Origin: Anaerohalosphaeraceae bacterium
GTDB lineage: Bacteria > Planctomycetota > Phycisphaerae > Sedimentisphaerales > Anaerohalosphaeraceae
Assembly (NCBI GenBank): GCA_037479115.1
Contig: JBBFLK010000025.1
Location: 1 to 42,940 of the forward strand
Length of the DNA stretch: 42,940 nucleotides
Reading direction: 5' to 3'
The notes under the pieces were generated by a model. That model was given only the letters and a program-made list of their open reading frames with translations, was not told the origin of the DNA and searched no databases. Shown here piece after piece: positions 5,567-36,143 of this stretch (positions within the stretch are counted from its first letter, which is position 1; the number at the start of each line of letters is the position of its first letter). The position numbers and the translations under genes are program-made.

Positions 5567-5588
5567 CACCCACACAACTGTGGCGCAC

Positions 5589-9546: not shown

Positions 9547-9605
9547 GTTTTCCCTGATTTTGGAGCTTTAGGAAGCGATAGGCATCACAGCGAGAAGGTC
9601 CGCGT

Positions 9606-10823: not shown

Positions 10824-11026
10824 CCCCGCCGGCCGCATCTGTCTGTACCTTGAATTTCTTCTCGGGCGGAGGGAGGGGGTGTTTTGTCTTTGCAGAGATT
10901 GGAAGAGTTTGAAGGATAGTTCGAAACCGGTTCTGCGGGCTGGCGGGGCAGGTTGGATTGCGGTAAACTGGGGTGCATCCGCTGCCTCCCGAGTCCGATT
11001 TGTGCCGGTTTGAAGGCGATGAAACA

Positions 11027-14000: not shown

Positions 14001-15082
14001 CCCATTACGGGGCCCGCGGATGGGTGCTGCACCACAACACGGATTTGTGGCGGGGAACGGCGCCTATCAATGCCGCCGACCACGGAATCTGGGTGACGGG
14101 CGGGGCGTGGCTGTGTCATCATTTGTGGGAACATTATTTGTTTACCCAGGATGAGCGGTTTCTGGAGAAGCGGGCCTATCCGCTGATGAAAGAGGCCTGT
14201 CTGTTTTTTGTCGATTTTCTGACGGAGGACCCGAAAACGGGCTGGCTGATCAGCACGCCGTCCAATTCTCCGGAACACGGAGGGCTTGTGGCCGGCCCGA
14301 CGATGGACCATCAGATTATCCGCTCGCTGTTTGAAGCGACGATTCAGGCGGCCCGAATCTTAAAGAAAGATGAGGAGTTTGCTGCTCAATTAACGCAATT
14401 GAAAGGCAAAATTGCTCCCAATCAGATTGGCCAATACGGTCAGCTTCAGGAGTGGCTGGAGGATAAAGACAAGCCCGAGGATACCCACCGGCATTGTTCG
14501 CATTTGTGGGGTGTTTACCCCGGCCGGGATATTACCCCGCAGCAGCCCGAACTGTTTCAGGCAGCGCGGGTATCTCTTCAGGGACGGGGAGACGGGGGGA
14601 CCGGCTGGGCGAAGGCCTGGAAGATGAATCTGTGGGCGCGGTTTGGAGACGGCCGGCGGGCGCATCGGCTTTTGCTTGATTCCCTGAAAGCCAATACCTA
14701 TGCGAACCTGTTCAGTGCGCATCCGCCGTTTCAGATTGACGGCAACTTCGGCGGCACAGCGGCGATTGCCGAGATGCTGCTTCAGAGCCATCTGGACCGA
14801 ATTGACCTGCTGCCGGCCCTGCCGAGCGCCTGGCCGAGCGGTTCCGTTTCGGGCCTGCGGGCACGCGGCGGCTATGAGGTTGATATCGAATGGGAAAATG
14901 GCCGGCTCAAACAGGCTCGGATTCGCCCCTCCAGGGCGGGGGTTTGCCGAGTCAGGACGTCGGTGCCTGTGGAAATTGTCTCGGGCTTTCAGCGGGTTGA
15001 ATTTCGCAAGCCCCGGGAGGAGATTGCGGAATTTGAGGTGCAGCCGGCACGCATTTATACCCTGACTGCCGGCGGGGATTAA
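11027..15082 (+). CDS. secreted three-enzyme fusion: alpha/beta-hydrolase esterase, pectinesterase (CE8) and GH95
   Basis: A 1351-residue exported protein with a signal peptide (residues 1 to about 30). Domain 1 (about 35-290) is an alpha/beta-hydrolase esterase with oxyanion block HGGGW (69-73), nucleophile S143 in GYSAGG, and likely D230 and H262, so it may remove acetyl or feruloyl groups. Domain 2 (about 298-590) is a CE8 pectin methylesterase: GQAVAL, D429 in QDTL, D450 in DFIFG, and R507 in LGRPW; the 21-residue gap between the two Asp equals that of Erwinia PemA (D178/D199). Domain 3 (about 605-1345) is GH95 (alpha-fucosidase or alpha-galactosidase type) with NINTEMNYW (953-961), E1083 in SNSPEHG and D1238 in IDGNFGG. 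The start at 11027 is set by the signal peptide. All three sites look intact. Confidence 0.93.
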
Positions 15083-15126
15083 ACCAGAAAATCGAAAAAA
15101 TGTTTCTTATCGAAAGGATTTATGCG

Positions 15127-17622: not shown

Positions 17623-17638
17623 ACAGAACGGGTTTTCT

Positions 17639-20600: not shown

Positions 20601-21316
20601 GGATGGAGCCGGTGGTGTTGAAGGCGTTTTTCAATGACCGGCTCAGCCGCATTTTCCAGAATGAGTATCTCCGTCCGCGTTCCCCGTTCTGTTCGCTGTC
20701 GATTCCCAAACAGGGCATCGGCAGCTGGTGTGATTTTGCCAAAACCTTTGAGGTGGACGACAGCGGTCTGCGGCGCTGCGTGCAGGAGCAGGGCGGATTC
20801 TATCGACTGCCCCAGGGCATCGTGTTTGAATGGCCCGCCGACCCGCAGGACAAGAATATCATTTTTGTTTCCCGATGGGAGAATTACCCGAATGAAATCA
20901 CGATTCCTTTATCCGGACAGGCAAAACATCTGTATCTGGTGATGGCTGGTTCCACGAACTCGATGCAGAGCCGCATCGACAACGGGGAGGTGCTTGTGAC
21001 CTACGCAGACGGCAGGCAGGAACGGCTGGCCCTGCACAATCCGACAACCTGGTGGCCGATTGACCAGGATTATTTTCTGGATGACTACGGTTTTCGCAGA
21101 CCCGAGCCGATTCCGCCTCGTGTGTATCTCCGAAGCGGACAAACGGCCGTTTATGATGCGGCGGAATTCAAAGGCAAAGGCGGGACGGTTCCCGGCGGAG
21201 CCGCGACGGTTTTGGATATCCCGCTGGAGCCGGCCAAACCCCTTCAATCTTTGACTGTGCGGGCTTTGGCGAATGAGGTGATTATCGGGTTGATGGCCGC
21301 GGTGCTGGTATACTGA
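17639..21316 (+). CDS. large secreted DUF4450 protein, putative six-hairpin glycosidase
   Basis: A 1225-residue exported protein. A signal peptide is present (hydrophobic run RIALVLVLLAAGAA). The middle (about 330-760) matches DUF4450 proteins of pectin loci, with MHGAAAWRTALAGWRGAYANDALGWHDRARRY, HYDMNLVYVDALF, YAAIWASDDLQYSGGGVTHASAYNYY and TTNWMPYTWSTNNVVMAETAHTALAYW (cited here in part). The pattern suggests an (alpha/alpha)6 toroid like GH65/GH95/GH78. The N-terminal part resembles a beta-sandwich and the last ~450 residues hold beta-rich modules I cannot name. ATG 17639 is chosen over TTG 17609, which would overlap the upstream gene. Function is not established; context suggests an exo-acting rhamnogalacturonan side-chain hydrolase. 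Confidence 0.85.
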   Translation: MDMFGFPDGLRFRRIALVLVLLAAGAARKTSGAAYNPPERILTERPTMEGRTARPLRYHPEGRDFVMENGLEFFNRPLYGGNTAFRADAGDKPEISLYLPGHGGNVRFGIRTKDGTRCLNEARRIVSRYRAGSMVYEIEDPLLPNGSLVLTVLALYEKEGILVKAELQAEAEPCEWLAAAGGASGRRGRRGGDIGCETEPVSEFFRFRPEFCKGNTFSIQENMFVLDSRLGRLAGFFPSGAKVQTADGRRWDKLEELAASEGGASETPVVFAAVPLQKDKPAYFLFYRLGSDEQAEFDGNFESLFERTEQHRRRIAGQVLADTPDSFLNAAVAALCAAADGIWDEPQGTVMHGAAAWRTALAGWRGAYANDALGWHDRARRYLRYWAQRQNLQEAAAEPGPDPASHLSRSHPAKQSRGDIGGRHYDMNLVYVDALFRHLMWTGDWALAEELWPVLERHFEWERRLFRRPFGPERLPLYEAYAAIWASDDLQYSGGGVTHASAYNYYHNQLAAQLARRLGKSPRPYEREAEQILKAMRKYLWLPEDGWYAEWKDWLGLQQTHPSAALWTFYHTIDCGAADPMQAWQMSRFVDTQIAHIPIHGPQIPEGLYYTLPTTNWMPYTWSTNNVVMAETAHTALAYWQLGRPEKAFSLLKGCILDSMYMGLCPGNLGMTTYFDMARGEAQRDFGDAVGIVSRAVIEGLFGIRPDALQGRLVICPGFPAEWEWARLRHPDIVFAYQRKDLVETFSIRPLFSRPLNLILRIPARGTDVERVSVNGRSAFWRVLDGSVGTARIEITPRLADAYEVQVVWKGPAPARAQTAPVAAQGEEWTAKIDSARFQKVFDPQGALDKIRVRGAFLEGRTAGKEGHRTVFAEVQHGRMKWLEPLAFEVRPPVEIIPSVSQEPKSIRFRIRNNTGYVFSEAAVTVGTWHREQPLWVPAYGLSEEIVLSGEEVPLMPGSNRVCGKFSEGRRAEGLVVNWKIPLRPKERMEPVVLKAFFNDRLSRIFQNEYLRPRSPFCSLSIPKQGIGSWCDFAKTFEVDDSGLRRCVQEQGGFYRLPQGIVFEWPADPQDKNIIFVSRWENYPNEITIPLSGQAKHLYLVMAGSTNSMQSRIDNGEVLVTYADGRQERLALHNPTTWWPIDQDYFLDDYGFRRPEPIPPRVYLRSGQTAVYDAAEFKGKGGTVPGGAATVLDIPLEPAKPLQSLTVRALANEVIIGLMAAVLVY

Positions 21317-21334
21317 ACTCGGAAAGGAGTACAT

Positions 21335-22999
21335 ATGTTTAAAAGACAGGATGGTTTGAATCTTCTGGTTCTTTTGAGTCTGATTTTGGGTTCGAGCGTC
21401 TCTGCGGCCTGGCCGCCGGGGCTGCCGGTCTCTGAAATGCCGTTTTCCATGACGCCGCCGACAGAGCCGCAGATTCCGGACAGGCGGTTTGTGATTACGG
21501 ATTATGGCGCGGTCGGAGACGGACAGACGATGAACACAGAGGCCTTTGCCCGTACGATAGAGGCCTGTGCCAAAGCCGGCGGCGGACGAGTTGTGGTTCC
21601 GGCGGGGCTGTGGCTGACGGGGCCGATTCGTCTGGTCAGCCGGATGGACCTGCATCTGGAGAAGGGAGCGGTAATCCTCTTCAGCCCGAATATGGAGGAT
21701 TATCCGCTGATGGAGCGGTTTTTTGAAGGCCGCCAGGAAGTCCGTCGGATGTCGCCTTTGACGGGGGACAACCTCGAACACATTGCCATTACCGGCTCGG
21801 GAATTCTGGACGGTTCGGGACAGGCCTGGCGTCCGGTCAAAAAAGAGAAGATGACGGAACGGCAGTGGCGGAATCTTCTGGCCTCCGGCGGGGCGGTGGA
21901 GCCGTCAGGGACAATCTGGTGGCCCTCTGAAAAGGCCATGAAAGGCCCTCAAACCGTTGCGGAACTGAAGAAACGGAATGCTCCGGTAGAGGACTATGCG
22001 GCGGCGGGAGAGTTTCTCCGTCCGGTACTGGTGTCGCTGGTGAATTGTCGGACCGTGCTCCTGGATGGGCCGACGTTTCAGAATTCGCCGGCCTGGAATA
22101 TTCATCCGCTGCTTTGTGAAAATATGATTATCCGCAATATCCAGGTCCGCAATCCCTGGTGGAGCCAGAACGGAGACGGCCTGGATTTGGAATCCTGCCG
22201 CAATGTTCTGGTTTATAACTGTACGTTTGATGTCGGGGATGATGCGATTTGTATGAAGTCCGGCCGCGATGAATACGGACGGCGCCGCGGGAAACCCACG
22301 GAAAACGTGGTGATTTCCGACTGTATCGTCTATCACGGACACGGCGGGTTCGTCATCGGCAGCGAGATGTCCGGCGGCGTGCGGAATATTTGGGTGCGCA
22401 ATTGCAGTTTTCTGGGGACGGACGTGGGGCTTCGTTTCAAGAGCACCCGCGGTCGCGGCGGAATTGTAGAAAATATCTATATTCAGGATATTTTTATGTC
22501 CAATATCGCCACGGATGCGATTCAGTTTAATCTGTTCTATTCCGGAACAGCCCCTTCTCCGGAACAAAGTCTGGACCTGCCTGCGGCACCGGTGACGGAG
22601 GAGACCCCTCAGTTCAGAAAGATTTCAATGCAGAATATCGTTTGCCGCGGCGCTCGGCGGGCCGTCTATATGCAGGGACTTCCGGAGATGCCGGTCCAGG
22701 ATATCCGGATGAAGCATGTGGTGATTTCTGCCCGGATGGGCGGGATTTTTTTGGATACAGAACGGCTGCATTTGTCGGACGTATCCATTCGTCCGGAACA
22801 AGGGGCTGATTTGGGGTTTTATAACAGCCGGCAGATTGTTCTTGAGCGGCCGACTTTTTCCGGTACAAAAGACGGTTTTCTAATCCTGGCCGGCTCGAAA
22901 ACGAAGGATATCCGAATCCTCGGGGCCGAGCGTGCGGTATTTTCGGAGCAAATTCGGTATCAGTCCGGCTGTGATGCAAAGGTTCTTTCATGGGAATAA
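21335..22999 (+). CDS. secreted GH28 polygalacturonase-family hydrolase
   Basis: A 554-residue exported enzyme with a signal peptide (about 1-24) and a single GH28 beta-helix. The catalytic set is complete: D281 in NGDGLDLES, D302/D303 in VGDDAICMKSG, H336 in GHGG, and RFKS. The N-terminal block FVITDYGAVGDG matches the first GH28 in this locus, but the two proteins differ in the loops around residues 150-230, where this one has an insertion rich in Lys/Arg. That pattern is typical of exo-acting enzymes, so release of mono- or digalacturonate, or action on rhamnogalacturonan, is likely but unproven. It starts 18 bases after the DUF4450 gene with a strong AAAGGAG site. Confidence 0.93.
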   Translation: MFKRQDGLNLLVLLSLILGSSVSAAWPPGLPVSEMPFSMTPPTEPQIPDRRFVITDYGAVGDGQTMNTEAFARTIEACAKAGGGRVVVPAGLWLTGPIRLVSRMDLHLEKGAVILFSPNMEDYPLMERFFEGRQEVRRMSPLTGDNLEHIAITGSGILDGSGQAWRPVKKEKMTERQWRNLLASGGAVEPSGTIWWPSEKAMKGPQTVAELKKRNAPVEDYAAAGEFLRPVLVSLVNCRTVLLDGPTFQNSPAWNIHPLLCENMIIRNIQVRNPWWSQNGDGLDLESCRNVLVYNCTFDVGDDAICMKSGRDEYGRRRGKPTENVVISDCIVYHGHGGFVIGSEMSGGVRNIWVRNCSFLGTDVGLRFKSTRGRGGIVENIYIQDIFMSNIATDAIQFNLFYSGTAPSPEQSLDLPAAPVTEETPQFRKISMQNIVCRGARRAVYMQGLPEMPVQDIRMKHVVISARMGGIFLDTERLHLSDVSIRPEQGADLGFYNSRQIVLERPTFSGTKDGFLILAGSKTKDIRILGAERAVFSEQIRYQSGCDAKVLSWE

Positions 23000-23037
23000 A
23001 CCGGTCCGAAAACGGCGGGAACCGAAAGGATGAGCAG

Positions 23038-24732
23038 ATGAAGTATCGGACAACGGTATGGGTGATGCTGATGATGGGGACGGCCCTTTCGCAGGCGGCG
23101 GAGTGGCCGACACTGCGTTTGAGCCGCTATTTAAACAGAGAGGCCGCCTGGTACAGCAGTCCGGAGGCCTTGACGCTGGCGGACAATATCCTCACCTGGC
23201 AGGATGATTACGGCGGCTGGCCGAAAAATGTCAATACGGCTTCCAAACCGTATGACGGGAACCGCAAGGACCTCCATGGCACCTTTGACAACGGAGCAAC
23301 CATTGGAGAACTGCGGTTTCTGGCCCGCGTGTATAAGGCCTCCGGGCAGGAGCGGTATCTGCAGGCCTTTCAGAAGGGCTTTGAGATGATTCTCAAGGCC
23401 CAGTACCCCACGGGCGGCTGGCCGCAGCAGTATCCCCCGCCGGCCAAAACCTATCATCGCCACATCACCTTTAACGACAATGCGATGGTCCGGATTTTGG
23501 TCTTTCTGAAAGATGTCAGCCAATCGGAAGACTATTCGTTTCTGAAGGAGGAACAGCGACAGGCGGCTCGGTCGGCCTTTGAGCGCGGGATCGGCTGCAT
23601 TCTCAAGTGCCAAATCCGGGTCAACGGGGAACTGACCGGCTGGTGTGCTCAGCACGATGAAAAGGATTTAAGCCCGCGGGCGGCCCGAAGTTATGAACTG
23701 GTTTCGCTCAGCGGAGGCGAAAGTGCAGAGATTCTGCGTCTGCTGATGCGGCAGGAGGACCCCTCGCCGGTTATGGTCCGGGCCATTGTCAGCGGGGTAC
23801 GCTGGTTTGAGCGGTCAAAGATTGAGGGGCTTCGGCTCAAGTGGATTAACGGCAGGCGCATGGCGGTGCCGGACCCGGAGGCCCCCGCTTTGTGGGCTCG
23901 GTTTTATGAGATTGACACAAATCGGCCGTTTTTCTGCGACCGCGACGGGGTTCGAAAATACGATTACAATGAACTGGACCCTGAACGCGCCGAGGGATAC
24001 GCCTGGCTTGGAGACTGGGGCAAAGACGTTTTTCGCGAATTTGAAAAATGGAAGGAAAAATGGAAAGACCGGCTGGCAGCCGTCGAGAGGATTCGGATTG
24101 TCCTGACAGGGGATTCCACGGTTTGTGAGTTCCAGCCGACGGATTGGAGACGCGGATGGGGGCAGTATCTGGGCGAATACTTTTCGGATAAGGTAGAGAT
24201 TGCCAACCATGCACGGAGCGGGCGAAGCACCAAAACCTTTTTGAATGAAGGGCTTTGGGAAAAGGCCCTGGAAGAGAAACCCCTGTTTATCCTGATGCAG
24301 TTTGGGCATAACGACAATCATGCCCCGGAAAAGCCCGAATCGACAGCGGCGGATAAGGAATACACGGATAATCTGCGGTATTTTGTGGAGCGGGCCAGGG
24401 CAATTGGGGCGACGCCGATTCTGATTACACCGATGCACCGCCGCAAGTTTACCCCGGACGGCAGGATGAATGACACGCTCAAGCCGTATGCGGATGCAAT
24501 GAAGAAGGTGGCGGAGGAAAAGAAAGCGGCCCTGGTGGATTTGCATACGGCCAGCGGACAGCTGTTTGAACGGCTTGGAGAGACGGAAGCCGCCAAGATG
24601 TCCGATGACCCGCAGGACCGAACGCACTTCAACGAACAGGGGGCCCGAAAAATGGCGGAGCTGATTATGCAGCAGCTGCCTCAAGCGGAGCCGTCAATAA
24701 AGCCCTATTTGAAACAAAAAAACGAACAGTAA
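23038..24732 (+). CDS. secreted pectate lyase PL10 fused to rhamnogalacturonan acetylesterase (CE12)
   Basis: A 564-residue exported fusion. After a signal peptide (ending near SQAAEW), residues about 25-345 form a PL10 polygalacturonate lyase (PelA type): WQDDYGGWPKN, TFDNGATIGELRFLARVY, AQYPTGGWPQQYP, HITFNDNAMVRIL. Residues about 352-555 are an SGNH hydrolase of CE12 type: nucleophile S360 in GDSTV, the Asn block GHND, and D527/H530 in DRTHFNEQG. Together they would cut the galacturonan backbone and deacetylate rhamnogalacturonan. The start ATG at 23038 follows GAAAGGATG; the earlier ATG at 22990 overlaps the previous gene. PL10-CE12 pairing is a logical processivity aid, since acetyl groups block cleavage. 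Confidence 0.93.
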   Translation: MKYRTTVWVMLMMGTALSQAAEWPTLRLSRYLNREAAWYSSPEALTLADNILTWQDDYGGWPKNVNTASKPYDGNRKDLHGTFDNGATIGELRFLARVYKASGQERYLQAFQKGFEMILKAQYPTGGWPQQYPPPAKTYHRHITFNDNAMVRILVFLKDVSQSEDYSFLKEEQRQAARSAFERGIGCILKCQIRVNGELTGWCAQHDEKDLSPRAARSYELVSLSGGESAEILRLLMRQEDPSPVMVRAIVSGVRWFERSKIEGLRLKWINGRRMAVPDPEAPALWARFYEIDTNRPFFCDRDGVRKYDYNELDPERAEGYAWLGDWGKDVFREFEKWKEKWKDRLAAVERIRIVLTGDSTVCEFQPTDWRRGWGQYLGEYFSDKVEIANHARSGRSTKTFLNEGLWEKALEEKPLFILMQFGHNDNHAPEKPESTAADKEYTDNLRYFVERARAIGATPILITPMHRRKFTPDGRMNDTLKPYADAMKKVAEEKKAALVDLHTASGQLFERLGETEAAKMSDDPQDRTHFNEQGARKMAELIMQQLPQAEPSIKPYLKQKNEQ

Positions 24733-24832: not shown

Positions 24833-25612
24833 ATGGGCCCCAAACGAAAAGCCGCACCTGCCTTTACACTCATTGAACTGCTTGTTGTCATTGCCATTAT
24901 CGGTCTGCTGCTTTCCGTTCTGATTCCGGCTCTCAAGCGTGCCACGGCCTATGCCCGAAAAATCAGCTGTCAGTCCAATTATAAGCAGCTCGGGGTGGCG
25001 ATGGGCATTTATGAGCACCAGACCGGCTATAATTTCCGAAAGGTGAAAACCGCCCGGGGGTTGTCCGCAGCGGAACTTTCCAAGACCTGGTTTTGGGAAA
25101 ACGGGACTTCGGATTATGCTCACGAATGGCAGCCGTTTGCCGTCCGGTTCATTATGAATGCCGGTGTTTTGCCGGACCGTCAGGTCTTTTTCTGTCCCGG
25201 TTATACAAATTTAGATTATAAAAAGAATTATCCGAGAGACGCCTCCTCGCTGGTCCCACAAGAGACCGTGGAGTTGGAGCGGCGGTGGCTGGCCGCAACG
25301 GGTCCGATGCCGATGTTCTGGAGTACGCATATCTGGATATGGAAGAAAGAAATTCGGGAGGATGTCCGCTCTGTCAACAACCTCTCTTCCGGGGCCATGA
25401 TGGTAGATATGACCAACGGGGCCTGGGAGTTTGCGAAAGCCAGAGACCCTGACCGGCTCGGCCGGGTGATGAACACCGTCGGGATTCGCCGCCTATATCA
25501 GCACGCCAATGTTTTGTTGGAAGACATGAGTGTGAAAAATCCAACGGATGATGATGCCAAGCTCGTTCAGTGGCTCTGGAACTCGGACAGATGGGCAGGG
25601 ACGGGCTATTGA
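24833..25612 (+). CDS. prepilin-type N-terminal methylation domain protein, second copy
   Basis: The N-terminus [19 protein letters not shown] is a prepilin signal with Ala before the cleavage site, followed by a single hydrophobic helix. The body shares long blocks with the next gene: [16 protein letters not shown] (compare CRSNMRQIGLVFSNYE), [26 protein letters not shown] and [15 protein letters not shown], so the two arose by duplication. Length is 259 residues. It follows the PL10-CE12 gene after 100 bases. The globular part is unusual for a pilus subunit and is probably displayed on the surface. What it does in the pectin locus is not known. Confidence 0.84.
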
Positions 25613-25665
25613 AAACTTTTGCATTAAAAGACCTATTTTCTCTGGTTTTTGTTTTTTTTGATTTT

Positions 25666-25734
25666 TTGCGCGAAATTCACTTTTTTTTGTCACAAGATTG
25701 CCTTGTCCGGAATATCCCCTAAAGGGAGAATAGC
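25666..25734 (+). promoter_or_regulatory. conserved 69-bp upstream element, copy 2
   Basis: Contains TTGCGCGAAAT (25666-25676), a T-tract (25681-25688), AGATTGCCTTGT (25695-25706) and AATAGC ending at 25734. Offsets match copy 1 (8613-8681) exactly: 29 bases from the first block to the second and 39 from there to the end of the third. It ends 42 bases before the gene at 25777. Confidence 0.6.
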
Positions 25735-25776
25735 AAAATAGGAAAAAAGGGAACTTCTGGATAAGGACTCTGGATT

Positions 25777-26580
25777 ATGAAGAAAAGACCCGCCTTTACA
25801 TTAATTGAGTTATTGGTTGTAATTGCCATTATTGGGCTTCTTTTATCTATTGTCATCCCCAGTTTAAAGAAAGCCACTGAATATGCCCGCAAGATTGTCT
25901 GCCGGTCCAACATGCGGCAGATTGGTTTGGTCTTCAGCAATTACGAGTCTGAAACTCGCTATAACTTCCGAAATTTCAAGAGTTATAACTCGATTCCCGC
26001 CTCCGAGCGGACGAAGCACTGGTTTTGGGTAGGCGGGACGGCAGATTTGGCCCATGAGTTGCGACCCAGGGCGATTGGATTTGTGATGAAGGCCGGTCTG
26101 CTTCCGGACAGCAAAATCCTGTTTTGCCCGGGGGTAAAGAACGTATCGAGTGATACCAATTATTTGTTAAGCGATGTGACAGCCGGAAACCCCATTCCCC
26201 GGAACACCGATGATATTTATCGGGAACTCGGAGACTCACTGGACGATTCCCGCAGGCCGCTGTTCTGGAGTACGTATGCCTGGATCTGGAAAAAAGAGAT
26301 TCGCAGCGGAGATACCTCAGTCATGCAGGTAAACAACGGCTCCAGCGGCGCGATGATGGTGGATATGACCAACGGTCTGTGGAAGTATGCGGAGCAAACC
26401 GACCCGACCCGTCTGGGAGTTTTGATGCGGAGTCGAAATGTTCAGCGGGCCTTTTCGCACGGCAATGTGCTGATGCAGGATTATAGTGTGGCCAATCCGA
26501 GCGACCGGGATGAGCAGCTCAATCGGTGGCTGTGGGGGGCGCCGTATTGGGCGGGCAACCCGAGTTTCGATTACAAGTAA
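25777..26580 (+). CDS. prepilin-type N-terminal methylation domain protein, third copy
   Basis: A 267-residue homologue of the preceding gene with the signal [15 protein letters not shown], Ala at -1 and a single transmembrane helix. Shared blocks include [64 protein letters not shown] and [16 protein letters not shown]; the C-termini also align (NVLMQDYSVANPSDRD against [16 protein letters not shown]). It has its own upstream element, the same as that of the first prepilin gene, so it may form a new transcription unit. The role is unknown; being a pseudopilin of a type II secretion machine that exports the pectinases is one possibility (inference). Confidence 0.85.
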   Translation: MKKRPAFTLIELLVVIAIIGLLLSIVIPSLKKATEYARKIVCRSNMRQIGLVFSNYESETRYNFRNFKSYNSIPASERTKHWFWVGGTADLAHELRPRAIGFVMKAGLLPDSKILFCPGVKNVSSDTNYLLSDVTAGNPIPRNTDDIYRELGDSLDDSRRPLFWSTYAWIWKKEIRSGDTSVMQVNNGSSGAMMVDMTNGLWKYAEQTDPTRLGVLMRSRNVQRAFSHGNVLMQDYSVANPSDRDEQLNRWLWGAPYWAGNPSFDYK

Positions 26581-26690: not shown

Positions 26691-28934
26691 ATGATGAAAA
26701 GCAAATGGGTATTGGTTTTGACGACATGTCTGGGCTTGTGGGTTTTGGCCCAGGCGGCATCCGCCGAAGTAACAGACCCGAATATCATCACGAGCGTGGT
26801 GCGGTACAATTGTATTGAGGGTACCAGCTGCGACACCGACCCTGTTGTGGTCAAGGCCGGGCTGGTGAACGGAGCCCTGACTCACGTGGACCGTTCGTTT
26901 GTTTTCCGGGATGCCAATGATTTAGCCGGGATTGATTTTGTACGGACGGCGGTGGATGACAAAGCGAACGCGTCTCTGCAGATGGATGTGACGGTCAGCA
27001 AGGCAGGCACCCTCTTTCTGCTGATTGACAACCGCGTCGGCGACGGCAACGGGGCGAACCCTCCAACCATTGGGTCGGTGATGAACTGGGTCCTGACGAA
27101 CGGCTTTGTGCAGACCGGCTATACGGTCGGCGTGTTCAACCCGTCGGATTCCTCGACGGTTTATATGACCGCATATGCCAAGGAAATTGCCGGACCGGGC
27201 ACGATTTCACTGTATGAGCAGAACGACGGCGCCACCCGGATTACCTATCTGATTGCTGCGATTCCGGCGGGCTGGAACCTGCCGCCGTCGGTAATGGGGG
27301 TGCCTTCGACGGCCAGTGTGTTCCCGGGGGATGCCCTGGTGATTACCCCTACGATTGTCGATTACGGGCAGAATACCAACACAACGGTTCTGTGGGAAAA
27401 GGTCTCCGGCGGCGATGTGGTGTTCTCTCCGAATCCCACGTCTGCAAATGTGTCGGTTACGTTCCCGAGCGGACTGGGCGATTATGTTCTTCGGCTGACT
27501 GTAACGGACGGCGAAGGCAAGCAGACTGTCAAGACCGTACAGGTTGCCGTGACCATTCCGACCTTTGCGCTGCAGGCGGCCGACCACTGCATGGTCTGCA
27601 ATGATGCTCAGATTGGACCGAACAGCACACGCCGCACGACGATTTCGGATATCCGCAACTATCAGGATGCCTCAACGACACGCCGGCGAATTGCCTACTA
27701 CCGTTATAATATCGGTTCTCTGAAAGAGCCGGGCAAGGGGTTTGCCAACTGCTATCTGACATTGAATGTGGACAAAGGCACCTCGGGAAAACGTTGTTAT
27801 GTGTATGCTCTCCGGGAAGAAGTAGATGATATTACACTCAACGGCGGTACATGGAACACCATGCCCGGTGTGGTCAACACCCCGCCGCCTCCGGTGGGCA
27901 CCGAGATTACCCTCTCCACCCTGGACTGGGCGGATATTACGCCGCTGGTGTATTCCTTCCTGCGTCCGGCGACACTGGCCACCTGGGTTTCGTTCCCGCC
28001 TTCAGCGGCGCTGGACGAAGTGCTCAACTCGGATACGGACGGAAGCATCGTGCTGATGTTTGTCAGCCATGACCCCCAGAACGCCGATTTTGAAATTTGC
28101 TCTCCCAGTCACAGCCGCACGGAACCGGTCACAGGGCTCAAAGGCATTATTCTCCGCGGCGAGATTCGTCCACTGACCTGGGCGACCAAGCCGCAGCCGA
28201 TGAACAACACCAGCCAGAGTACGCGGCTGGCTCAGCTGAGCTGGACCAACCCGGCTCCCAGCCAGGAAGGCGCCGTCATCACCTGCGATGTGTTCTTTGG
28301 CGCCACCGAGCCGAATCTGCTGGCTCCGGACTATGGGCTGACCACGCTGGCGACCGGCATCAGCGGCAATTCCGTAGCGATTCCTTCGGGGATGCTTCAG
28401 GTCAACACGACCTATTACTGGGTGGTGGATGTCCATGACAGCATTGCCGGAACGACGCGAGGGTATGTCTGGACGTTCAATACGAATAATATGATTCCTC
28501 TGGTGGAGTTGGAGAAGCCGTCCCAGTATATTTGGCTGGGCAACGCAGGCGATCCGGCCACGGCAACGGCGGTCATCAACGCCACGGTGACGGATGACGG
28601 TTTCCCGCAGCCGTACACGCTTCTTTGGGAGCAGCTGAGCGGACCGGTGACGGTGCCGATTGTTCCCAATAATGTCGAAGACATTACACTGGTTCTGCCG
28701 CAGACGGGAACGTATGTGTTCAGACTGTCGGCGGACGACGGCAGTGTTGTCGGCTCGGCCATCACGCAGATTTATGTCGGCACCTCCCCGTGCAATGCGG
28801 CTCAGGCCAAGCCGACCTATGTGCGGATTCCGGCGGATATCAACAACGACTGCTTTGTGGATATGGCCGACCTGGCGGAGTTTGTCTCCCGCTGGCTGGA
28901 ATGCAACGTGAGTATGGAGGCACCCTGCCGATAA
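26691..28934 (+). CDS. secreted multi-module protein with C-terminal dockerin-like segment
   Basis: A 747-residue exported protein with a signal peptide ending near AQAASAEV. No catalytic domain is recognised. Modules by pattern: an N-terminal beta region (25-190), an Ig/PKD-like segment (about 195-285, DYVLRLTVTDGEGKQTVK), a DNRLRE/CBM96-like region (about 290-480), an FN3-like module (about 490-595, TTYYWVVDV...GYVWTFNT), another PKD/Ig-like segment (600-700) and a final ADINNDCFVDMADLAEF block (about 715-740) of dockerin type with one calcium-binding loop. It is probably a carbohydrate-binding or surface-attached accessory of the pectin system. A strong AGGAGGTCTTTT ribosome site precedes the ATG, and a strong terminator follows. 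Confidence 0.82.
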   Translation: MMKSKWVLVLTTCLGLWVLAQAASAEVTDPNIITSVVRYNCIEGTSCDTDPVVVKAGLVNGALTHVDRSFVFRDANDLAGIDFVRTAVDDKANASLQMDVTVSKAGTLFLLIDNRVGDGNGANPPTIGSVMNWVLTNGFVQTGYTVGVFNPSDSSTVYMTAYAKEIAGPGTISLYEQNDGATRITYLIAAIPAGWNLPPSVMGVPSTASVFPGDALVITPTIVDYGQNTNTTVLWEKVSGGDVVFSPNPTSANVSVTFPSGLGDYVLRLTVTDGEGKQTVKTVQVAVTIPTFALQAADHCMVCNDAQIGPNSTRRTTISDIRNYQDASTTRRRIAYYRYNIGSLKEPGKGFANCYLTLNVDKGTSGKRCYVYALREEVDDITLNGGTWNTMPGVVNTPPPPVGTEITLSTLDWADITPLVYSFLRPATLATWVSFPPSAALDEVLNSDTDGSIVLMFVSHDPQNADFEICSPSHSRTEPVTGLKGIILRGEIRPLTWATKPQPMNNTSQSTRLAQLSWTNPAPSQEGAVITCDVFFGATEPNLLAPDYGLTTLATGISGNSVAIPSGMLQVNTTYYWVVDVHDSIAGTTRGYVWTFNTNNMIPLVELEKPSQYIWLGNAGDPATATAVINATVTDDGFPQPYTLLWEQLSGPVTVPIVPNNVEDITLVLPQTGTYVFRLSADDGSVVGSAITQIYVGTSPCNAAQAKPTYVRIPADINNDCFVDMADLAEFVSRWLECNVSMEAPCR

Positions 28935-29050: not shown

Positions 29051-32000
29051 ATGAATCGATGGGGGATTGTCTGGATAGGTCTTTTGATTTTCGCAGGGAT
29101 AATGTCGGGTGCACCCTCCAATCCGCAGCCGGCGGTCGGGGAGTCGGTTGACCCGGATATGCTGCTTCTGCAGTGGACGCCGGATGCGGACGCGGTGCGC
29201 AGTGAGATTTATTTGGGGACCAGTGCGGCGGCGGTTGCAGCGGCGCAAAAGCCGTCCGGCGACGTGGACGGCAGCGGTACTGTGGATATTCTGGACCTGG
29301 TTTATGTGGCCGCCCAGTGGCTGGATAACCCGTCCTCACCCTGCCCGGACCTGGATTACAGCGGATGGGTGGATTTGGCGGATGCGGCGGAAATCAGCCG
29401 GCGATGGATGAGTGAGCCGGAGGTACTGTATTTGGGAGCCGCCGCCGGAAATTCGTTTGAGCCCGGTCAGCTGATTCCGAATAAGACCTATTACTGGCGG
29501 GTGGATACCGTCCGATGCGGCGGAATTGAGAAAGGACCGGTCTGGAGTTTTAAGACCAAACGTCCGGCCTTTCCCGGGGCGGAAGGATTCGGCAAATGGG
29601 CCTCCGGCGGACGGGGCGGCAGCGTTTATCACGTAACCAATCTGAACGACAGCGGACCGGGGTCTTTCCGCGATGCCGTCAGTGCTCCCAATCGAACGGT
29701 TGTATTTGATGTCGGCGGCGTCATTCGAATCATAGACCGCATTGTCGTCAGCAAAGACATTACGATTGCCGGCCAGACCGCGCCGGGCGAAGGGGTTGTC
29801 ATCTACGGCAACGGCTTGTCTTATACGGATGCCAACCGCACCATTACCCGGCATATGCGATACCGAATGGGCAAGGTCGGCACCAGCGGCAAGGACGCGG
29901 TGACCATCGCCGACGGGACGAATATGATTTTTGACCATTGTTCGATTTCCTGGGGGCGGGATGAGACCTTTTCCATCAGCGGCGGCACGGGCGAGGACCC
30001 GGGCTTTGTGACCATTCAGAACTGCATCATTGCTCAGGGGCTTCAGAACCACTCCTGCGGCGGGCTGATTCAGAACTTTAACGGCGTCAGTCTGTTTCGG
30101 AACCTGTATATTGACAACAATACGAGGAATCCGAAGGTCAAAGGCATCAACGAGTTTATCAATAATGTGGTGTATAACTGGGGGGTGGCCGCTTATATTT
30201 TGGGGGATTCGGAGGCCGACTCGTATGCGAATGTGATTCGAAACTATTTTATCAGCGGGCCGAATACCAGCTCGGCGGCCTTTACGAGGGGCAATCTGAA
30301 TTTTCACATTTATGCCCTGAACAACTGGCACGATTCCAACCGCAACGGGGTGCTCGACGGGGCGATTCTGGAGCAGGCGGCCTACGGGACCGTGGACTGG
30401 CAGACGGTTCCGTATAATTATCCGGGCGTCAGGACAATGCTGGGGGCACCGGCGGCCTACAAAGTAGTCGCCTCACGGGCCGGGGCGTTTTTCCCCATTC
30501 GCGACCGAATCGACACCCGCCTGATTAAAGAACTGCGGTCCCTGGGAACCAGCGGACAGCTGATTTCGGATGAAAATGCCGCTCCAATGTACGGGGTTGG
30601 GATTCTCGACAGCGGCATCTGTCCGACGGATACGGACCAGGATGGAATGCCGGATTACTGGGAACTGTCGATCGCGGGGCTGAACCCGTATGGGGCCGAC
30701 CACAACGGCGATGCGGACGGAAACGGCTATACGAACCTGGAGGATTATCTGAACTTTCTGGCGGTTCCGCATGCGCACGTGCAGAAAAACCGGCCTCGGG
30801 ATATCAATCTGCGGCGGTTTACCTCCGGATTTGATACCGGAGCGGTCTATACCGTTTTCGATGCGCAAAACGGTACCGTGCAGCTTTTGTCCGACGGCAG
30901 CACGGCCCGGTTTACGCCGAATCCGAACTATATCGGTCCGGCCTGTTTCCGCTATACGGTCAACGACGGACAAGTCTATACGGATACAGTGCTGCTGCTG
31001 GTTTCGGAATACGGCGGGCATCCGCTGCCGCCGAAGCATCCGTCCGGTCTGGTGCAGGGCTTGAATTACAAGTACTATACCGGCACCTTTGAGTATCTGC
31101 CGGATTTTGCCTTGCTGACGCCCGCCCAGCAGGGAACCATTGCCAATTTTGACATCAGCGGCGCGCCGGCTCCGGATTCTTTTGCCTATGTTTTTGAAGG
31201 ATTTATTGAGATCCCGGCGGACGGGCTGTACACGTTTTATCTGAATTCGGATGACGGCAGCAAGCTGTATATTGACGGCGGAATTGTGGTCAGCAATGAC
31301 GGGGTTCACGGAACACAGGAAGCCGAAGGCAGCGCAGCCCTGCTGGCGGGAATGCATGCCATTCGCGTCACGTACTTTGAAAAGGATGGAAACCAGCGTC
31401 TGGAAGTGCGCTGGGCCGGGCCGGGCTTCAGCAAACAGCTGATTTCCAACAGCGTTCTGTATCGGGGGCTGCTCGATACGGTTCCGCCGGCGGCTCCGAC
31501 GGGCGTGTGGGCGGCGGCATCCAATGCCCAGGTTGTGCTTCAGTGGAAAAACAACACGGAAGCCGACCTGGCAGGCTATAATGTTTATCGAACGACGGTC
31601 TCCGGCGGCGGCTATGTTCGGCAGAATGACACGCTTCTTCATGCACCGATTTTTCTCGATTCGTCCGTCTCCAACGGCACGCTTTACCATTATGCTGTTA
31701 CCGCCGTGGATGAGTCGTTTAATGAATCCCAGCGAAGTTATGAAGTGTCCGCCCGTCCGGCGGATTCGAATGACATCTGTCTGCTGATTCAGGAGCTGAC
31801 GGCCGGCTTCTGTCTGGTGGAGGGGACGGTTGACAATAACAATGCCGGGTTCACCGGATACGGTTTTGCCAACGGGACCAATGCCGTGGGCAAGGGAATC
31901 AACTGGAGCGTGTCTGTCGGACAGCCGGGGACTTATCAGATGGTCTGGCGGTTTGCTAACGGCACGACCTCCAATCGGCCGGCCAATCTGATGATTAACG

Positions 32001-32194
32001 GCGCCGTTGCTGTTTCGGGGATTGCCTTCGGCCCCACCGGCAGCTGGACAACCTGGAGCGAGGTGTCCTGCAGTGTTGTGCTGGGGGCGGGGACACATCT
32101 GGTTCGGCTGGACCCGACCACAAGCAACGGGCTGGCCAATATTGATTATCTGATGATAACAGGTCCGGATGTTGTTCCGGCGGCCTGTCAGTAA
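29051..32194 (+). CDS. secreted PL1 pectate lyase with inserted dockerin, PA14, FN3 and C-terminal binding module
   Basis: A 1047-residue exported protein. After the signal peptide (1-21), an FN3-like module begins (LQWTPDADAVRSEIYLGTS) and is interrupted at 66-124 by a complete two-repeat dockerin (DVDGSGTVDILDLVYVAAQW; DLDYSGWVDLADAAEISRRW), after which the module resumes (YLGAAAGNSFEPG, TYYWRVDTV, GPVWSFKT). PL1 follows (about 172-560): PGAEGFGKWASGGRGG, IVFDVGG-like VVFDVGGVIRI, ITIAGQTAPGEGV, DHCSISWG. Next are a Ca-binding-like DTDQDGMPDYWE stretch, a cadherin-like module, PA14 (about 670-805), FN3 (810-900) and a CBM35/CBM6-like end (916-1040). ATG 29051 has AAGGGA upstream; the longer frame starts before the terminator and is rejected. 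Confidence 0.9.
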   Translation: MNRWGIVWIGLLIFAGIMSGAPSNPQPAVGESVDPDMLLLQWTPDADAVRSEIYLGTSAAAVAAAQKPSGDVDGSGTVDILDLVYVAAQWLDNPSSPCPDLDYSGWVDLADAAEISRRWMSEPEVLYLGAAAGNSFEPGQLIPNKTYYWRVDTVRCGGIEKGPVWSFKTKRPAFPGAEGFGKWASGGRGGSVYHVTNLNDSGPGSFRDAVSAPNRTVVFDVGGVIRIIDRIVVSKDITIAGQTAPGEGVVIYGNGLSYTDANRTITRHMRYRMGKVGTSGKDAVTIADGTNMIFDHCSISWGRDETFSISGGTGEDPGFVTIQNCIIAQGLQNHSCGGLIQNFNGVSLFRNLYIDNNTRNPKVKGINEFINNVVYNWGVAAYILGDSEADSYANVIRNYFISGPNTSSAAFTRGNLNFHIYALNNWHDSNRNGVLDGAILEQAAYGTVDWQTVPYNYPGVRTMLGAPAAYKVVASRAGAFFPIRDRIDTRLIKELRSLGTSGQLISDENAAPMYGVGILDSGICPTDTDQDGMPDYWELSIAGLNPYGADHNGDADGNGYTNLEDYLNFLAVPHAHVQKNRPRDINLRRFTSGFDTGAVYTVFDAQNGTVQLLSDGSTARFTPNPNYIGPACFRYTVNDGQVYTDTVLLLVSEYGGHPLPPKHPSGLVQGLNYKYYTGTFEYLPDFALLTPAQQGTIANFDISGAPAPDSFAYVFEGFIEIPADGLYTFYLNSDDGSKLYIDGGIVVSNDGVHGTQEAEGSAALLAGMHAIRVTYFEKDGNQRLEVRWAGPGFSKQLISNSVLYRGLLDTVPPAAPTGVWAAASNAQVVLQWKNNTEADLAGYNVYRTTVSGGGYVRQNDTLLHAPIFLDSSVSNGTLYHYAVTAVDESFNESQRSYEVSARPADSNDICLLIQELTAGFCLVEGTVDNNNAGFTGYGFANGTNAVGKGINWSVSVGQPGTYQMVWRFANGTTSNRPANLMINGAVAVSGIAFGPTGSWTTWSEVSCSVVLGAGTHLVRLDPTTSNGLANIDYLMITGPDVVPAACQ

Positions 32195-32198: not shown

Positions 32199-34313
32199 TC
32201 AGTCGGCAATCAGCCGGATTAATCCCCAGAAGAAGATGAGGATTCCGATGGTCACGGCGGTGCTGGCCAGAAAGCCGAGTGTGTCCGTGCGGGTCCATTT
32301 GCAGAACTCCCAGCTGGAGCGGGGGAACAGCTTCAGATGGTCAAAACGGGACGGGTCCGCATAGCTTTTTTGGACTTCTTCGGCGTCCTTCTGCGGGTCC
32401 GGATGGACCGGCGTTTTCAGCCGGGCGTAAAACCGGTCAATGGTTGCCTGAAGACCTTTGTCTCGGGTGAACAGACTGATGGGAATCAGAAAGACAAACG
32501 GCAGAATGGAAGCGATCAGATAGCGAATCGTCAGGAGGGCCGAAGGGGTCAAAGAAGCCAGGTCGATGCCGAGGAGATGGGCGATAATCAGTTCGGTATG
32601 CAGCCGTCCGATGCCTTCGTAAGGGGAGTCGGGGTCATCGGGGTCCATTCGGGCGATGTTGTCGTAAAAGATGCTCACCGGCAGGATTCGAACCGGTTTT
32701 CGAATGAGCTGGCCGACTTCCTCCGCCAGGCCCTCCTCAACATCCGTCTGGCAGGCGTGAACCGAACGAACCACGGTCTGTTCACGGGTCTGCTGCGACA
32801 GCCAGGGCGAATGACGGACGGATTCAAAACAGGGAAGCAGATGCGGAAGAACGGCCAGAATAATCGAGCAGGCAATCACCTCGACATAGACAGCCGTACG
32901 CGTCAGACGCTTCCAGAACAGCAGCAGCAGGACGGGGGCGCCGAAGATGATGTTCAGCGAAGGCAGGGCCTTGACCAGATGGATGATGCTGAACGTGGTT
33001 ACGGATACATAAATGCTCAAAAGCAGAAAGCCGATAATGGCCAGGCGGGAGACATTAATATAGTGGCGGGGACTTTTGCCGGGAACGAAGGGCTTGTAGA
33101 GATGCCGAACGAAAAGGGCGGACAGATAGACGCAGACGGCATCCAGTGTGGACATGTTGGCGCCGAGGATGCCGGCCACCATCAGCCCTCGCAGTCCGGG
33201 ACCGAGCAGCTGGCGGCTGAGGATTCCCCAGGCCGTATCCGGGTCCGAAACCATATCGGCGCAGAGGGCGTAGGCAAACAGGCCGCAAAGCGCCCAGATA
33301 ATCGTCAGAATCCGTTTGGTGTAGGCCCCGCCGATATTGGCGATTCGGGCGGTCAGCTCGTCGCGTGCAGAGCCGTTGAGGGCCATATTACCCTGATGGC
33401 CTGTGATGCCGATGATGGTGACCACAACCAGGGCGGCAATCGAATTCCAGGCGAATTCATCGCCGCCCGAACCAAACACAAACAGCATATGATCCGGAAT
33501 TCGCCGGGTAAATTCCCCCCAGCCGCCCAGAGCAACCAGGGCCAGCGGAATCAGAAGGAAGGAAAACAAAAGGATAAGAAACCCCTGCAGGATATCGGTT
33601 ACGGCCGCCGCCCGAAAGCCCCCCATCGTTACATAGAAGCCGATAAACACCGTGTAAATCAGATAAAACCAGAACGGATGTGTGTAGGAAACAAATGCGC
33701 TGATTTGTCCTTTTTTATACAGGGCGTCAAGCCGTTCGTATTCGGCGGCCTCCTGCGGAGTCAGGATGGCGGTTTTCCGGAGCTTGATAAGCTGTCTGTA
33801 CCGCTCATACAGCTGGATGCTTTCTGCCTCCGCCGGCGTGTATTTTTCCGGGGGTTTGATGGTCATGGCCTGAAACGTCCGCAGCGAGGCCTTGTAGCCG
33901 ATTCCCATAATCAGGATGCTCAGCCAGATGCCGACGAGCGCGTAAATCGTCGGCAGGATTTTGCTCTGAAAGCGTTCTTCGAACAGTTCGGCCATCGTAA
34001 CCAGGCGGACGCGCCGGAACCAGCCGGCCATGAACCAATAATACGGACCCGTGAAGATGCCGATGAGCATCAGCCATACGCCGCCCAGCCCTTTCTCAAA
34101 GGCGAAACTGGCGGTGCGGATGGCGCTGTTGGCATCGCTGAGTGTGCCCATGTTCAGGAAATACTGCAGGAGTTTGTTGAAGGACCGTCCGGCCAGGAAA
34201 AAGTCTTCCTCGGAACGGATTTTTCCGTACACTTTTTGGCCGATGTACGTGATGGCCAGCAGATAGAAGAGAAGAATCAGCAAGTCTATCGGATGAAAAC
34301 CGAACAGTTCCAT
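32199..34313 (-). CDS. sodium:solute symporter family transporter (SSS)
   Basis: A 704-residue inner-membrane protein with about 13-14 hydrophobic segments and the SSS family look: DFFLAGRSFNKLLQYFLNMGTLSDANSA, GGFRAAAVTDILQGFLIL, SRQLLGPGLRGLMVAGILGANMSTLDA. It would take up a small solute with Na+, probably a sugar or uronic acid from pectin breakdown. Two hydrophilic insertions are unusual: about 60 charged residues after the fifth segment (KPPEKYTPAEAESIQLYERY onward) and a long loop plus tail near the C-terminus. The start is ATG 34313, six bases after AGAGGA; the TTG just before it is too close to that site. It is convergent with the PL1 gene (4-bp gap) and divergent from the GH43 gene. 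Confidence 0.9.
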   Translation of the reverse strand: MELFGFHPIDLLILLFYLLAITYIGQKVYGKIRSEEDFFLAGRSFNKLLQYFLNMGTLSDANSAIRTASFAFEKGLGGVWLMLIGIFTGPYYWFMAGWFRRVRLVTMAELFEERFQSKILPTIYALVGIWLSILIMGIGYKASLRTFQAMTIKPPEKYTPAEAESIQLYERYRQLIKLRKTAILTPQEAAEYERLDALYKKGQISAFVSYTHPFWFYLIYTVFIGFYVTMGGFRAAAVTDILQGFLILLFSFLLIPLALVALGGWGEFTRRIPDHMLFVFGSGGDEFAWNSIAALVVVTIIGITGHQGNMALNGSARDELTARIANIGGAYTKRILTIIWALCGLFAYALCADMVSDPDTAWGILSRQLLGPGLRGLMVAGILGANMSTLDAVCVYLSALFVRHLYKPFVPGKSPRHYINVSRLAIIGFLLLSIYVSVTTFSIIHLVKALPSLNIIFGAPVLLLLFWKRLTRTAVYVEVIACSIILAVLPHLLPCFESVRHSPWLSQQTREQTVVRSVHACQTDVEEGLAEEVGQLIRKPVRILPVSIFYDNIARMDPDDPDSPYEGIGRLHTELIIAHLLGIDLASLTPSALLTIRYLIASILPFVFLIPISLFTRDKGLQATIDRFYARLKTPVHPDPQKDAEEVQKSYADPSRFDHLKLFPRSSWEFCKWTRTDTLGFLASTAVTIGILIFFWGLIRLIAD

Positions 34314-34478
34314 CAAATCCTCTTCTCTTGTTTATGAATCGAAAAACGCATTTATCCGGTTATTGTATCCGGAAGACGAAGATGTTTCCACCCAATTTTG
34401 ACTGGACGAAAGGCAGCAAATATGGCAGAAAAAGGTTTACCGGGATGGAAAAAAGAAAGGAGCGCTGTAGAATTGCGG

Positions 34479-36143
34479 ATGATGAAATCTGTTCTCAAAT
34501 CCATTCTTGCGGCGGCGGTTTTGATGGCGGGCTTGTCGGGCAGTGTCTGGGGGGCCGGAGACCGACAGACAAAGCCGAGTTCGGCTGCGGGGCCGTTTGT
34601 GTCGAACGTCTGGGTTTCTGACCAGGGGGACGGGACCTACAAAAACCCGGTTTTGTATGCGGATTATTCCGACCCGGATGTCATTCGTGTGGGGGAGGAT
34701 TATTATATGACGGCCTCCAGTTTTACCAGTTTTCCGGGCCTTCCAATCCTGCACTCAAAAGACTTGGTCAACTGGACGCTTATCGGGCATGCAGTTCAGC
34801 GGTATCCCGAACCTGCGTTTGACAACCCGCAGCACGGCAAGGGAATCTGGGCGCCGAGCATTCGTTTTCACGAGGGGATGTTTTATATTTTCTGGGGTGA
34901 CCCGGACTATGGAATTTATCGGGTACGGGCTTCTCGCCCCGAAGGCCCTTGGGAGGAGCCGCTTCTGATTCTGCCGGGCAAGGGGCTGATTGACCCGTGT
35001 CCGCTGTGGGATGATGACGGGCGGGCGTGGCTGGTTCATGCCTGGGCGGGGAGCCGCGCGGGGGTCAAGAGTCTGCTGACCGTTCGTTCCATGGATTGGC
35101 AGGCCACCCGGGTGAGCGCAGAGGCCCGGCATGTTTTTGACGGCCATGAAAAGCATCCGACCATCGAGGGCCCCAAGTTTTATAAAGTCAACGGCTATTA
35201 CTATATTTTTGCGCCCGGCGGCGGTGTGACCAGCGGCTGGCAGGTGGTGCTCCGCTCCAAAGATATTTACGGCCCGTATGAGGACCGCATCGTGCTCCAT
35301 CAGGGTACGACGGCTGTCAATGGTCCGCATCAGGGCGGCTGGGTTGACACTCCGTCCGGGCAGTCCTGGTTTCTGCATTTTCAGGATGCAGGGCCCTATG
35401 GCCGGATTGTGCACCTGCAGCCGATGGTCTGGAAAGACGGCTGGCCGGTGATGGGCACGGATGCCGATGGAGACGGAACGGGAGAACCGGTTCTAACCTG
35501 GAAAAAGCCGCAGGTCGGCGGTGTGTTTCCTCGGATGACGCCGCCCGACAGTGATGAATTTGACGGCGATACCCTCGGCCTTCAGTGGCAGTGGCAGGCA
35601 AACCCCAACCCCGTTTGGTTTGCAAAAATCCGCGGGACGGATTATCTGCGGTTGTTTGCGATTCCGCTGCCTTCCCCGGAGGCGAATTTCTGGCAGGTTC
35701 CCAACCTGCTGCTGCAGAAGTTTCCAGCCCCGTCGTTTTCGGCTTCTGCGAAGGTTCGGCTTGTCCCGGAACAGCAGGTCATCCGCGGCGGGCTCGTGGT
35801 TTTTGGCGATGATTATTCGGCCCTCGAGCTGGCCGTCAAGGACCGTTCGCTTGTGCTGCGGCTGGTGGTCTGTATGCAGGCCGAACAGGGCGGACGGGAA
35901 GGGCTGGCCGCCGAAATCCCCCTTCAGACAGACACGGTGATTCTGCGGGTTCAGGTGACTGCCCCCAACGCCCTCTGTCAGTTCAGCTACAGTCTTGACG
36001 GCAAAGAGTTTATCTCGGTCGGGCGGCCGTTTCCGGCCAAAGCGGGACGATGGGTCGGGGCGAAGGTCGGCTTGTACTGTGTTTCGCAGGCCGGCTCACG
36101 GGCAGGCGGCTATCTGGATGCCGACTGGTTTCGAATCGAGTAG
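34479..36143 (+). CDS. secreted GH43 glycosidase with C-terminal beta-sandwich
   Basis: A 554-residue exported five-bladed beta-propeller enzyme. A signal peptide covers about 1-26 (MMKSVLKSILAAAVLMAGLS). The three acidic catalytic positions are present: D65 in SDPDVI (base), D172 in LIDPCPLWDDDG (pKa modulator) and E230 in IEGPKFYK (acid). The C-terminal ~190 residues (from about 355, DEFDGDTLGLQWQWQANP) are the beta-sandwich seen in GH43 beta-xylosidases and arabinofuranosidases. Removal of arabinose, xylose or galactose side chains from rhamnogalacturonan is likely; exact specificity is open. The start at 34479 is set by the signal peptide although its AGGAG is 16 bases away; TTG 34473 is an alternative. 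Confidence 0.9.
   Translation: MMKSVLKSILAAAVLMAGLSGSVWGAGDRQTKPSSAAGPFVSNVWVSDQGDGTYKNPVLYADYSDPDVIRVGEDYYMTASSFTSFPGLPILHSKDLVNWTLIGHAVQRYPEPAFDNPQHGKGIWAPSIRFHEGMFYIFWGDPDYGIYRVRASRPEGPWEEPLLILPGKGLIDPCPLWDDDGRAWLVHAWAGSRAGVKSLLTVRSMDWQATRVSAEARHVFDGHEKHPTIEGPKFYKVNGYYYIFAPGGGVTSGWQVVLRSKDIYGPYEDRIVLHQGTTAVNGPHQGGWVDTPSGQSWFLHFQDAGPYGRIVHLQPMVWKDGWPVMGTDADGDGTGEPVLTWKKPQVGGVFPRMTPPDSDEFDGDTLGLQWQWQANPNPVWFAKIRGTDYLRLFAIPLPSPEANFWQVPNLLLQKFPAPSFSASAKVRLVPEQQVIRGGLVVFGDDYSALELAVKDRSLVLRLVVCMQAEQGGREGLAAEIPLQTDTVILRVQVTAPNALCQFSYSLDGKEFISVGRPFPAKAGRWVGAKVGLYCVSQAGSRAGGYLDADWFRIE

Follow-up and report, generated by a model that had tools for sequence, protein, structure and literature searches.

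Can a dockerin sit inside another folded domain, and if it does, what is it doing there? The question is raised by a secreted-looking lyase encoded in a 42,940-nucleotide stretch of DNA from an Anaerohalosphaeraceae bacterium (assembly GCA_037479115.1, contig JBBFLK010000025.1, positions 1 to 42,940), referred to here as the window. A sequence-only reading of this DNA had proposed a two-repeat dockerin at residues 66-124 of the lyase, within an FN3-like module. Work on cellulosomes and on designed enzyme scaffolds commonly regards dockerins as plugs mounted at the end of a protein. A natural dockerin fixed at both ends in a β-sandwich would be a rigid plug which could be placed elsewhere in the chain. 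Dockerins away from the C-terminus, as here, have been described in Ruminococcus flavefaciens FD-1, where internal and N-terminal ones are no less active than those at the C-terminus (available part of PMC5301203). Unlike the present case, these dockerins are mid-chain and not within another fold, and their cognate cohesin system is known (same part of PMC5301203). Because dockerin activity in internal and N-terminal positions has been described before, the novelty lies in the nesting inside another fold, not in the position. No description of a dockerin nested in FN3 was found in the titles and abstracts of the open-licence literature, and the word 'dockerin' occurs zero times in the accessible portion of a paper on Phycisphaerae genomes (PMC11266412).

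The host protein starts with a signal-peptide-like N-terminus followed by the FN3-like domain with its dockerin, the PL1 lyase domain, an Ig-like domain, a PA14 domain, a second FN3-like domain and a CBM6/35 (Table 1). Judged by homology, the enzyme is a PL1-type pectate lyase: phmmer relates the lyase domain to pectate lyase 9buj_A (3e-31), the NCBIfam model PelZ gives 116 bits (1.4e-33), below the equivalog cut-off of 840 set for that model, and Pfam Pectate_lyase_4 stays under its cut-off (E 0.027). No terminal dockerin was found after the CBM6/CBM35.

Table 1. Features of the lyase gene and of its upstream neighbour (window positions; residues are those of the encoded protein)
Feature	Positions	Strand	Basis
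PL1-type lyase, 1047 aa, ATG start	29051..32191	+	gene call, domain scans
Signal-peptide-like hydrophobic N-terminus, residues 1-20, FN3 module directly after	29051..29110	+	read from sequence
FN3-like domain, whole including insert, residues 21-172	29111..29566	+	alignment, AF2
FN3-like domain, half 1, residues 21-67, ends YLGTSAAAVAAAQK	29111..29251	+	alignment, AF2, VIA
Inserted dockerin (predicted), residues 68-124, two EF-hand loop-helix repeats	29252..29422	+	loops, profile, AF2, Foldseek, VIA
Dockerin calcium loop 1, DVDGSGTVDILD	29261..29296	+	ligand-position check
Dockerin calcium loop 2, DLDYSGWVDLAD	29348..29383	+	ligand-position check
FN3-like domain, half 2, residues 125-172, KTYYWRVDTV ... 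GPVWSFKT	29423..29566	+	alignment, AF2, VIA
PL1-type pectate lyase domain (by homology), residues 173-520, end approximate	29567..30610	+	phmmer, NCBIfam
PA14 domain, residues 669-798	31055..31444	+	Pfam
CBM6/CBM35, residues 925-1037	31823..32161	+	Pfam, phmmer
Upstream comparison protein, 747 aa	26691..28931	+	gene call
Uninterrupted FN3-like module of upstream protein	28182..28487	+	profile match L041 441-542
Single-repeat C-terminal dockerin-like segment, upstream protein	28833..28904	+	L016 match 408-431, 17.4 bits

The insert and the domain around it

Is the insert a dockerin? The EF-hands of dockerins bind calcium through ligands at loop positions 1, 3, 5, 9 and 12. Both loops of the insert, DVDGSGTVDILD and DLDYSGWVDLAD, have oxygen side chains at each of these positions, and the alignment together with the helices of the AlphaFold2 (AF2) model (13-21 and 42-50 of the insert) reveals two duplicated EF-hand loop-helix repeats. 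Predicted alone, the insert reaches a pLDDT of 94.4 and adopts a dockerin fold, superposing in VIA on 2y3n_B with a Z of 10.0 and an rmsd of 1.4 over 55 residues; the 21 VIA rows with a Z of 2 or more are all dockerin-bearing entries. In Foldseek, too, the top matches are dockerins (2y3n_B, E 1.9e-3), calmodulin-type EF-hands following further down at low probability, and a profile made from 39 such inserts ranks dockerins first in the PDB (2y3n_B, 3e-8). Pfam Dockerin_1 (PF00404) gives the window's own insert 12.4 bits (E 0.19) against a cut-off of 22.9, and among 28 nested relatives scanned with the same model 13 are over the cut-off, 10 match below it and five are unmatched at E 0.01. All ligands of both calcium loops are present in 24 of the 39 nested dockerins, including the one in the window, and in the other 15 at least one loop is missing an oxygen ligand. 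Going by its model, the insert is a two-repeat dockerin of type I (PF00404) spanning residues 68-124, close to what had been proposed from the sequence.

Do the flanking segments close around it? The sequence-only reading had tied its proposal to a structure prediction, and flanks which did not form one domain would have spoken against it. The AF2 model of the FN3 and dockerin together, made from a 21-sequence alignment, has a pLDDT of 86.4 and a pTM of 0.79. Its strands (model numbering) lie at 3-6, 11-13, 20-23 and 30-36 before the insert and at 107-111, 126-135, 138-140 and 144-149 after it, and the two halves together build a β-sandwich of FN3 topology. The best VIA match, 7jgt, aligns 85 residues over the model range 1-152 (Z 8.6, rmsd 1.9), and all 50 listed rows align 82-89 residues across approximately positions 1-152 of the model, most of them being named FN3. 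Since the VIA alignment extends over the full range of the AF2 model, the flanks are one FN3 domain in that model, with the dockerin inside. The insertion loop comes after the fourth predicted strand, which would be strand C going by FN3 topology and the strand order of the model. Both flanks also align to uninterrupted FN3-like modules, among them the one in the upstream protein, an intact copy of the module to which the sequence-only reading had already pointed.

Recurrence, selection and origin

Is this layout peculiar to one gene? Other planctomycete proteins with the nested layout had been suggested as a check, and they turned out to be numerous. A profile run on fetched loci finds the FN3-like domain with a dockerin at the same insertion point in 39 proteins from 23 genomes of the host order (probably Sedimentisphaerales), with scores of 117-220 bits for a profile built from 21 of the 39 proteins it scores. 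The insertion point common to these proteins follows VY-L/F-GTD...V..A and precedes the f.G ... TYYWR-V/I-D half. Such a recurrence of one layout at one position excludes chance. Among 59 relatives searched, an insert-bearing orthologue is present in all five remaining genomes of the genus, and also in G025, G027, G029 and G055, together with other nested proteins. Searching the whole order with the best 32 candidates per genome scored, at least 25 of 118 genomes have a match at E up to 1e-20; G482 was dropped from these because of its low-complexity insert, leaving 24 genomes if the split form of G046 is counted. Across the phylum, with the best nine candidates per genome scored, full-length nested matches (approximately model positions 2-151) occur in at least four of 392 genomes, all from the host order. 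A scan of named genomes returned three nested loci out of 80 kept (L205, L206 and L207), which are the same records as G023, G052 and G450. Six of the seven families of the order that were sampled have the nested form.

Which proteins carry the module? By these searches it is conserved at a single site in secreted carbohydrate-active enzymes of the order. Apart from the PL1 lyases, the Pfam domains found over cut-off in nested proteins are GH3, GH106, glycoamylase-like, GH2_N, acetyl xylan esterase, GDSL lipase and metallophosphatase, as well as DUF3604, DUF5010 and DUF5060. A GH3 protein (L079) has a GH10 match just above cut-off; GH99-, GH141- and apiosidase-like matches stay below it, and several nested proteins have no enzyme domain recognisable by Pfam. 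The module usually has further domains after it, and it is the final one in one L077 protein, L168 and L170. One locus (L164 of G459, 1029-9954 +) has four consecutive genes with one nested FN3-dockerin module each, of which one has a GDSL lipase match and three are without a recognised enzyme domain.

Three loci were kept outside the 39: one in G482 with a low-complexity insert (L172), a split form in G046 (L174) and one of incomplete sequence in G479 (L173). In the G482 protein (848-4405 -, residues 188-327; 73 bits with the nested profile), the FN3 loop is filled by an Asp/Val-rich low-complexity repeat, which may be an EF-hand loop that has decayed or expanded. The G046 protein (2174-8869 +) has a three-level nest at residues 877-1199, between GH97 and GH16, in which an FN3 half is followed by EF-hand 1, a CBM35/CBM6 (about 1012-1121), EF-hand 2 and the other FN3 half.

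The nested dockerin is under purifying selection. Compared with the orthologues in G004, G003 and G001, its dN/dS is 0.04, 0.10 and 0.08 (the dS against G001 being 2.14, near saturation), and that of the FN3 halves is higher at 0.10, 0.16 and 0.29. Did the module arise once? In a tree built from just the FN3 parts (39 nested and 69 uninterrupted rows) the nested rows are scattered with poor support; the tree has 14 label changes compared with a mean of 31.8 after shuffling, and the AU test on it does not reject a single nested clade (p 0.378). The insertion point is identical and therefore suggests one origin.

Terminal dockerins and candidate partners

How does the nested dockerin relate to those at the ends of proteins? 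That dockerins are normally terminal, as the sequence-only reading had put it, holds in the own genome as a tendency, with 23 of 40 dockerin-like segments (45 loci examined) ending at most 11 residues from the C-terminus. As a rule it fails, the remaining segments being located just past the signal peptide or between domains. Single EF-hand dockerin-like repeats, such as the one ending the upstream protein, are seen in other proteins of this genome too. A second dockerin is absent from all 30 nested proteins whose C-terminus is closed, a count that includes two doubtful cases, L089 (apparent frameshift where a base is ambiguous) and L084 (a fragment of 169 aa); in two nested proteins with an open C-terminus, L078 and L083, there are very weak extra dockerin matches of 6-9 bits. 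Over all long loci, a separate terminal dockerin is present in 0 of 29 nested proteins versus 15 of 99 with an uninterrupted FN3 (Fisher p 0.022), a control into which other orders and phyla are mixed. When the window and the loci as far as L204 are the only ones counted, the figures are 0 of 29 versus 10 of 18 (p 8e-6). These p values are too small and serve as guides only, because of the kinship among the proteins and genomes and because the loci were picked by hand.

A sister lyase in G028 (L185) offers a direct comparison. It is 60% identical to the window's lyase over 528 columns, starting just past the insert. Its pre-lyase FN3 is uninterrupted and it has a dockerin at residues 1381-1433 of 1444. 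Depending on the lineage, the same enzyme therefore has its dockerin either nested in the FN3 or placed at the C-terminus. The FN3 is uninterrupted in the same manner in G024, where the gene runs off the contig end. We infer from these comparisons that the nested FN3-dockerin module replaces the usual terminal dockerin.

What would such a dockerin bind? A search of the genome for cohesin-like partners had been suggested, and it found none: the own assembly (G000; 52 contigs, 99.85% complete) has no match with PF00963 or with a profile of eight cohesins from the order, and neither model finds in it a scaffoldin with several cohesins. A congener (G005:C67) has one weak cohesin match (E 9e-4). 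In the host order as a whole, Dockerin_1 is found in 118 of 118 genomes (over cut-off in 117) and a cohesin in six of 118. Of the 24 genomes that have the nested module, 20 gave no match to a cohesin. Most dockerins of the order are therefore left without a known partner. The nested module is present in four of the six cohesin-bearing genomes versus 20 of the 112 others (Fisher p 0.015 with G482 left out, kinship making this p too small). With the nested form in those four genomes and dockerins on several of the cohesin proteins there, a cohesin-dockerin system seems to exist in the order. A docking role for the nested dockerin, which the sequence-only reading had pictured as holding the enzyme by a loop, is plausible from its family.

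The cohesin proteins of the order have features of their own. Two long S8 peptidases, L178 of G037 and L179 of G010, consist of S8 peptidase, TIG, cohesin, dockerin and cohesin in this order, and could possibly be a self-assembling protease or a scaffold. In G463 (L177, 2935-6504 -) two adjacent small proteins have one cohesin each and, by eye, dockerin-like repeats at the C-terminus. The available part of PMC11557425 describes a Coh-Doc-Coh protein in Limihaloglobus sulfuriphilus, an order of domains which resembles the cohesin-dockerin-cohesin of the G010 and G037 proteins, and the part of PMC6461901 at hand puts forward a hypothetical 'planctosome' of planctomycete cohesin and dockerin proteins. 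Unlike the module studied here, no nested dockerin is mentioned in these parts of the two papers (PMC11557425, PMC6461901), and the window's genome is without a detected cohesin.

Possible roles and the surrounding locus

The reading we favour, with a probability of roughly 0.6, is that of a composite FN3-dockerin docking module that replaces the terminal dockerin and takes over its task, the calcium-dependent tethering of the enzyme to an extracellular partner. How could it work? From the fold and the ligands it follows that calcium would fill both loops and fold the dockerin. The FN3 sandwich would keep both dockerin ends together, in the way that cellulosomal dockerins are stabilised by a clasp within the molecule or by an X-module, and would set its binding face near the lyase in a fixed pose and not on a floppy tail. 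This face would then bind a putative surface or scaffold protein, tethering the enzyme. The partner may be a very divergent cohesin, another receptor or one from another organism.

How does this compare with known ways of supporting a dockerin? X-modules are said to stabilise the adjacent dockerin (available part of PMC5590126). The XDoc dyads of type II cellulosomal systems (2b59, 5g5d and 4u3s are among the VIA rows of the insert) are alike in that a separate module and a dockerin make one unit. They differ in that their dockerin is a separate domain downstream of the X-module, whereas here it is inside the sandwich. The intramolecular clasp reportedly goes back to a paper by Slutzki in 2013. 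In a clasp the head and tail of the dockerin are held together, which is stabilising according to the accessible text of PMC5864761 and PMC4728124. Terminal residues make the contact there, whereas in the nested module the ends would be tied covalently by the host domain.

The evidence can be read in other ways. It is highly improbable that the flanks are unrelated half-domains or a linker around an ordinary internal dockerin. No Pfam fn3 match in the lyase is listed at E up to 1, the identity of the module to the solved FN3s of the VIA rows is low, and Foldseek is weak on the whole model (best E 1.1e-3), which we attribute to the interruption of the FN3; yet the AF2 model and the VIA rows span both halves, the flanks align to uninterrupted modules, and the G028 sister lyase has the empty site. 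Could the dockerin repeats have been pasted by neutral shuffling into a tolerant FN3 loop, with no specific role? We regard this as quite unlikely. The low dN/dS of the dockerin, the calcium ligands that are mostly retained, the missing second dockerin in the chain and the spread over six of seven sampled families weigh against it, even though dockerins abound in the order and copies of this FN3 module in the own genome, and a calcium loop is imperfect in 15 of the 39 nested dockerins. The Asp-rich insert of L172 and the CBM inside the dockerin of L174 also favour shuffling, as they indicate that the loop tolerates material.

A rather doubtful alternative, though one to be kept in mind, accepts the true dockerin fold and drops the cohesin: in this lineage, the dockerin would be a calcium-dependent adhesion, sorting or stabilising element for the cell surface, the matrix or another secreted protein. 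The imbalance between Dockerin_1 and cohesin across the 118 genomes, with no cohesin detected in the own genome, fits this view, as does the placement of 23 of 40 own-genome segments at the extreme C-terminus, in the manner of a sorting tail. It fits less well with the four cohesin-bearing genomes, out of six, that also have the nested form, and with the several cohesin proteins there that carry dockerins. The composite docking module can also be taken further, and we do so tentatively: the nested dockerins might be a distinct 'in-loop' class in which the FN3 clamps both ends, giving a rigid and reusable cassette which one planctomycete order shuffles among its secreted enzymes for polysaccharide breakdown and which replaces terminal dockerins and binds an undetected cohesin or another receptor, with a dockerin that can even open for a CBM between its EF-hands, as in G046 (L174).

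An FN3-dockerin cassette of this kind would let one ask whether fixed termini change the stability, the dual binding mode or the mechanical strength of a dockerin, and nested dockerins sharpen the question of what dockerins bind in the cohesin-poor Planctomycetota.

The neighbourhood of the lyase gene is a pectin-degradation locus (window 10973-24729 and 34398-36140) encoding BD-FAE/pectinesterase/GH95 in one frame, GH28-GH88, GH28, Pec_lyase-GDSL and GH43, with an SSF symporter at 32202-34316. Just upstream of the dockerin-bearing proteins, at 24833-26580, are two adjacent type-IV-pilin-like proteins, the first with an N_methyl match and the second with a similar start by sequence.
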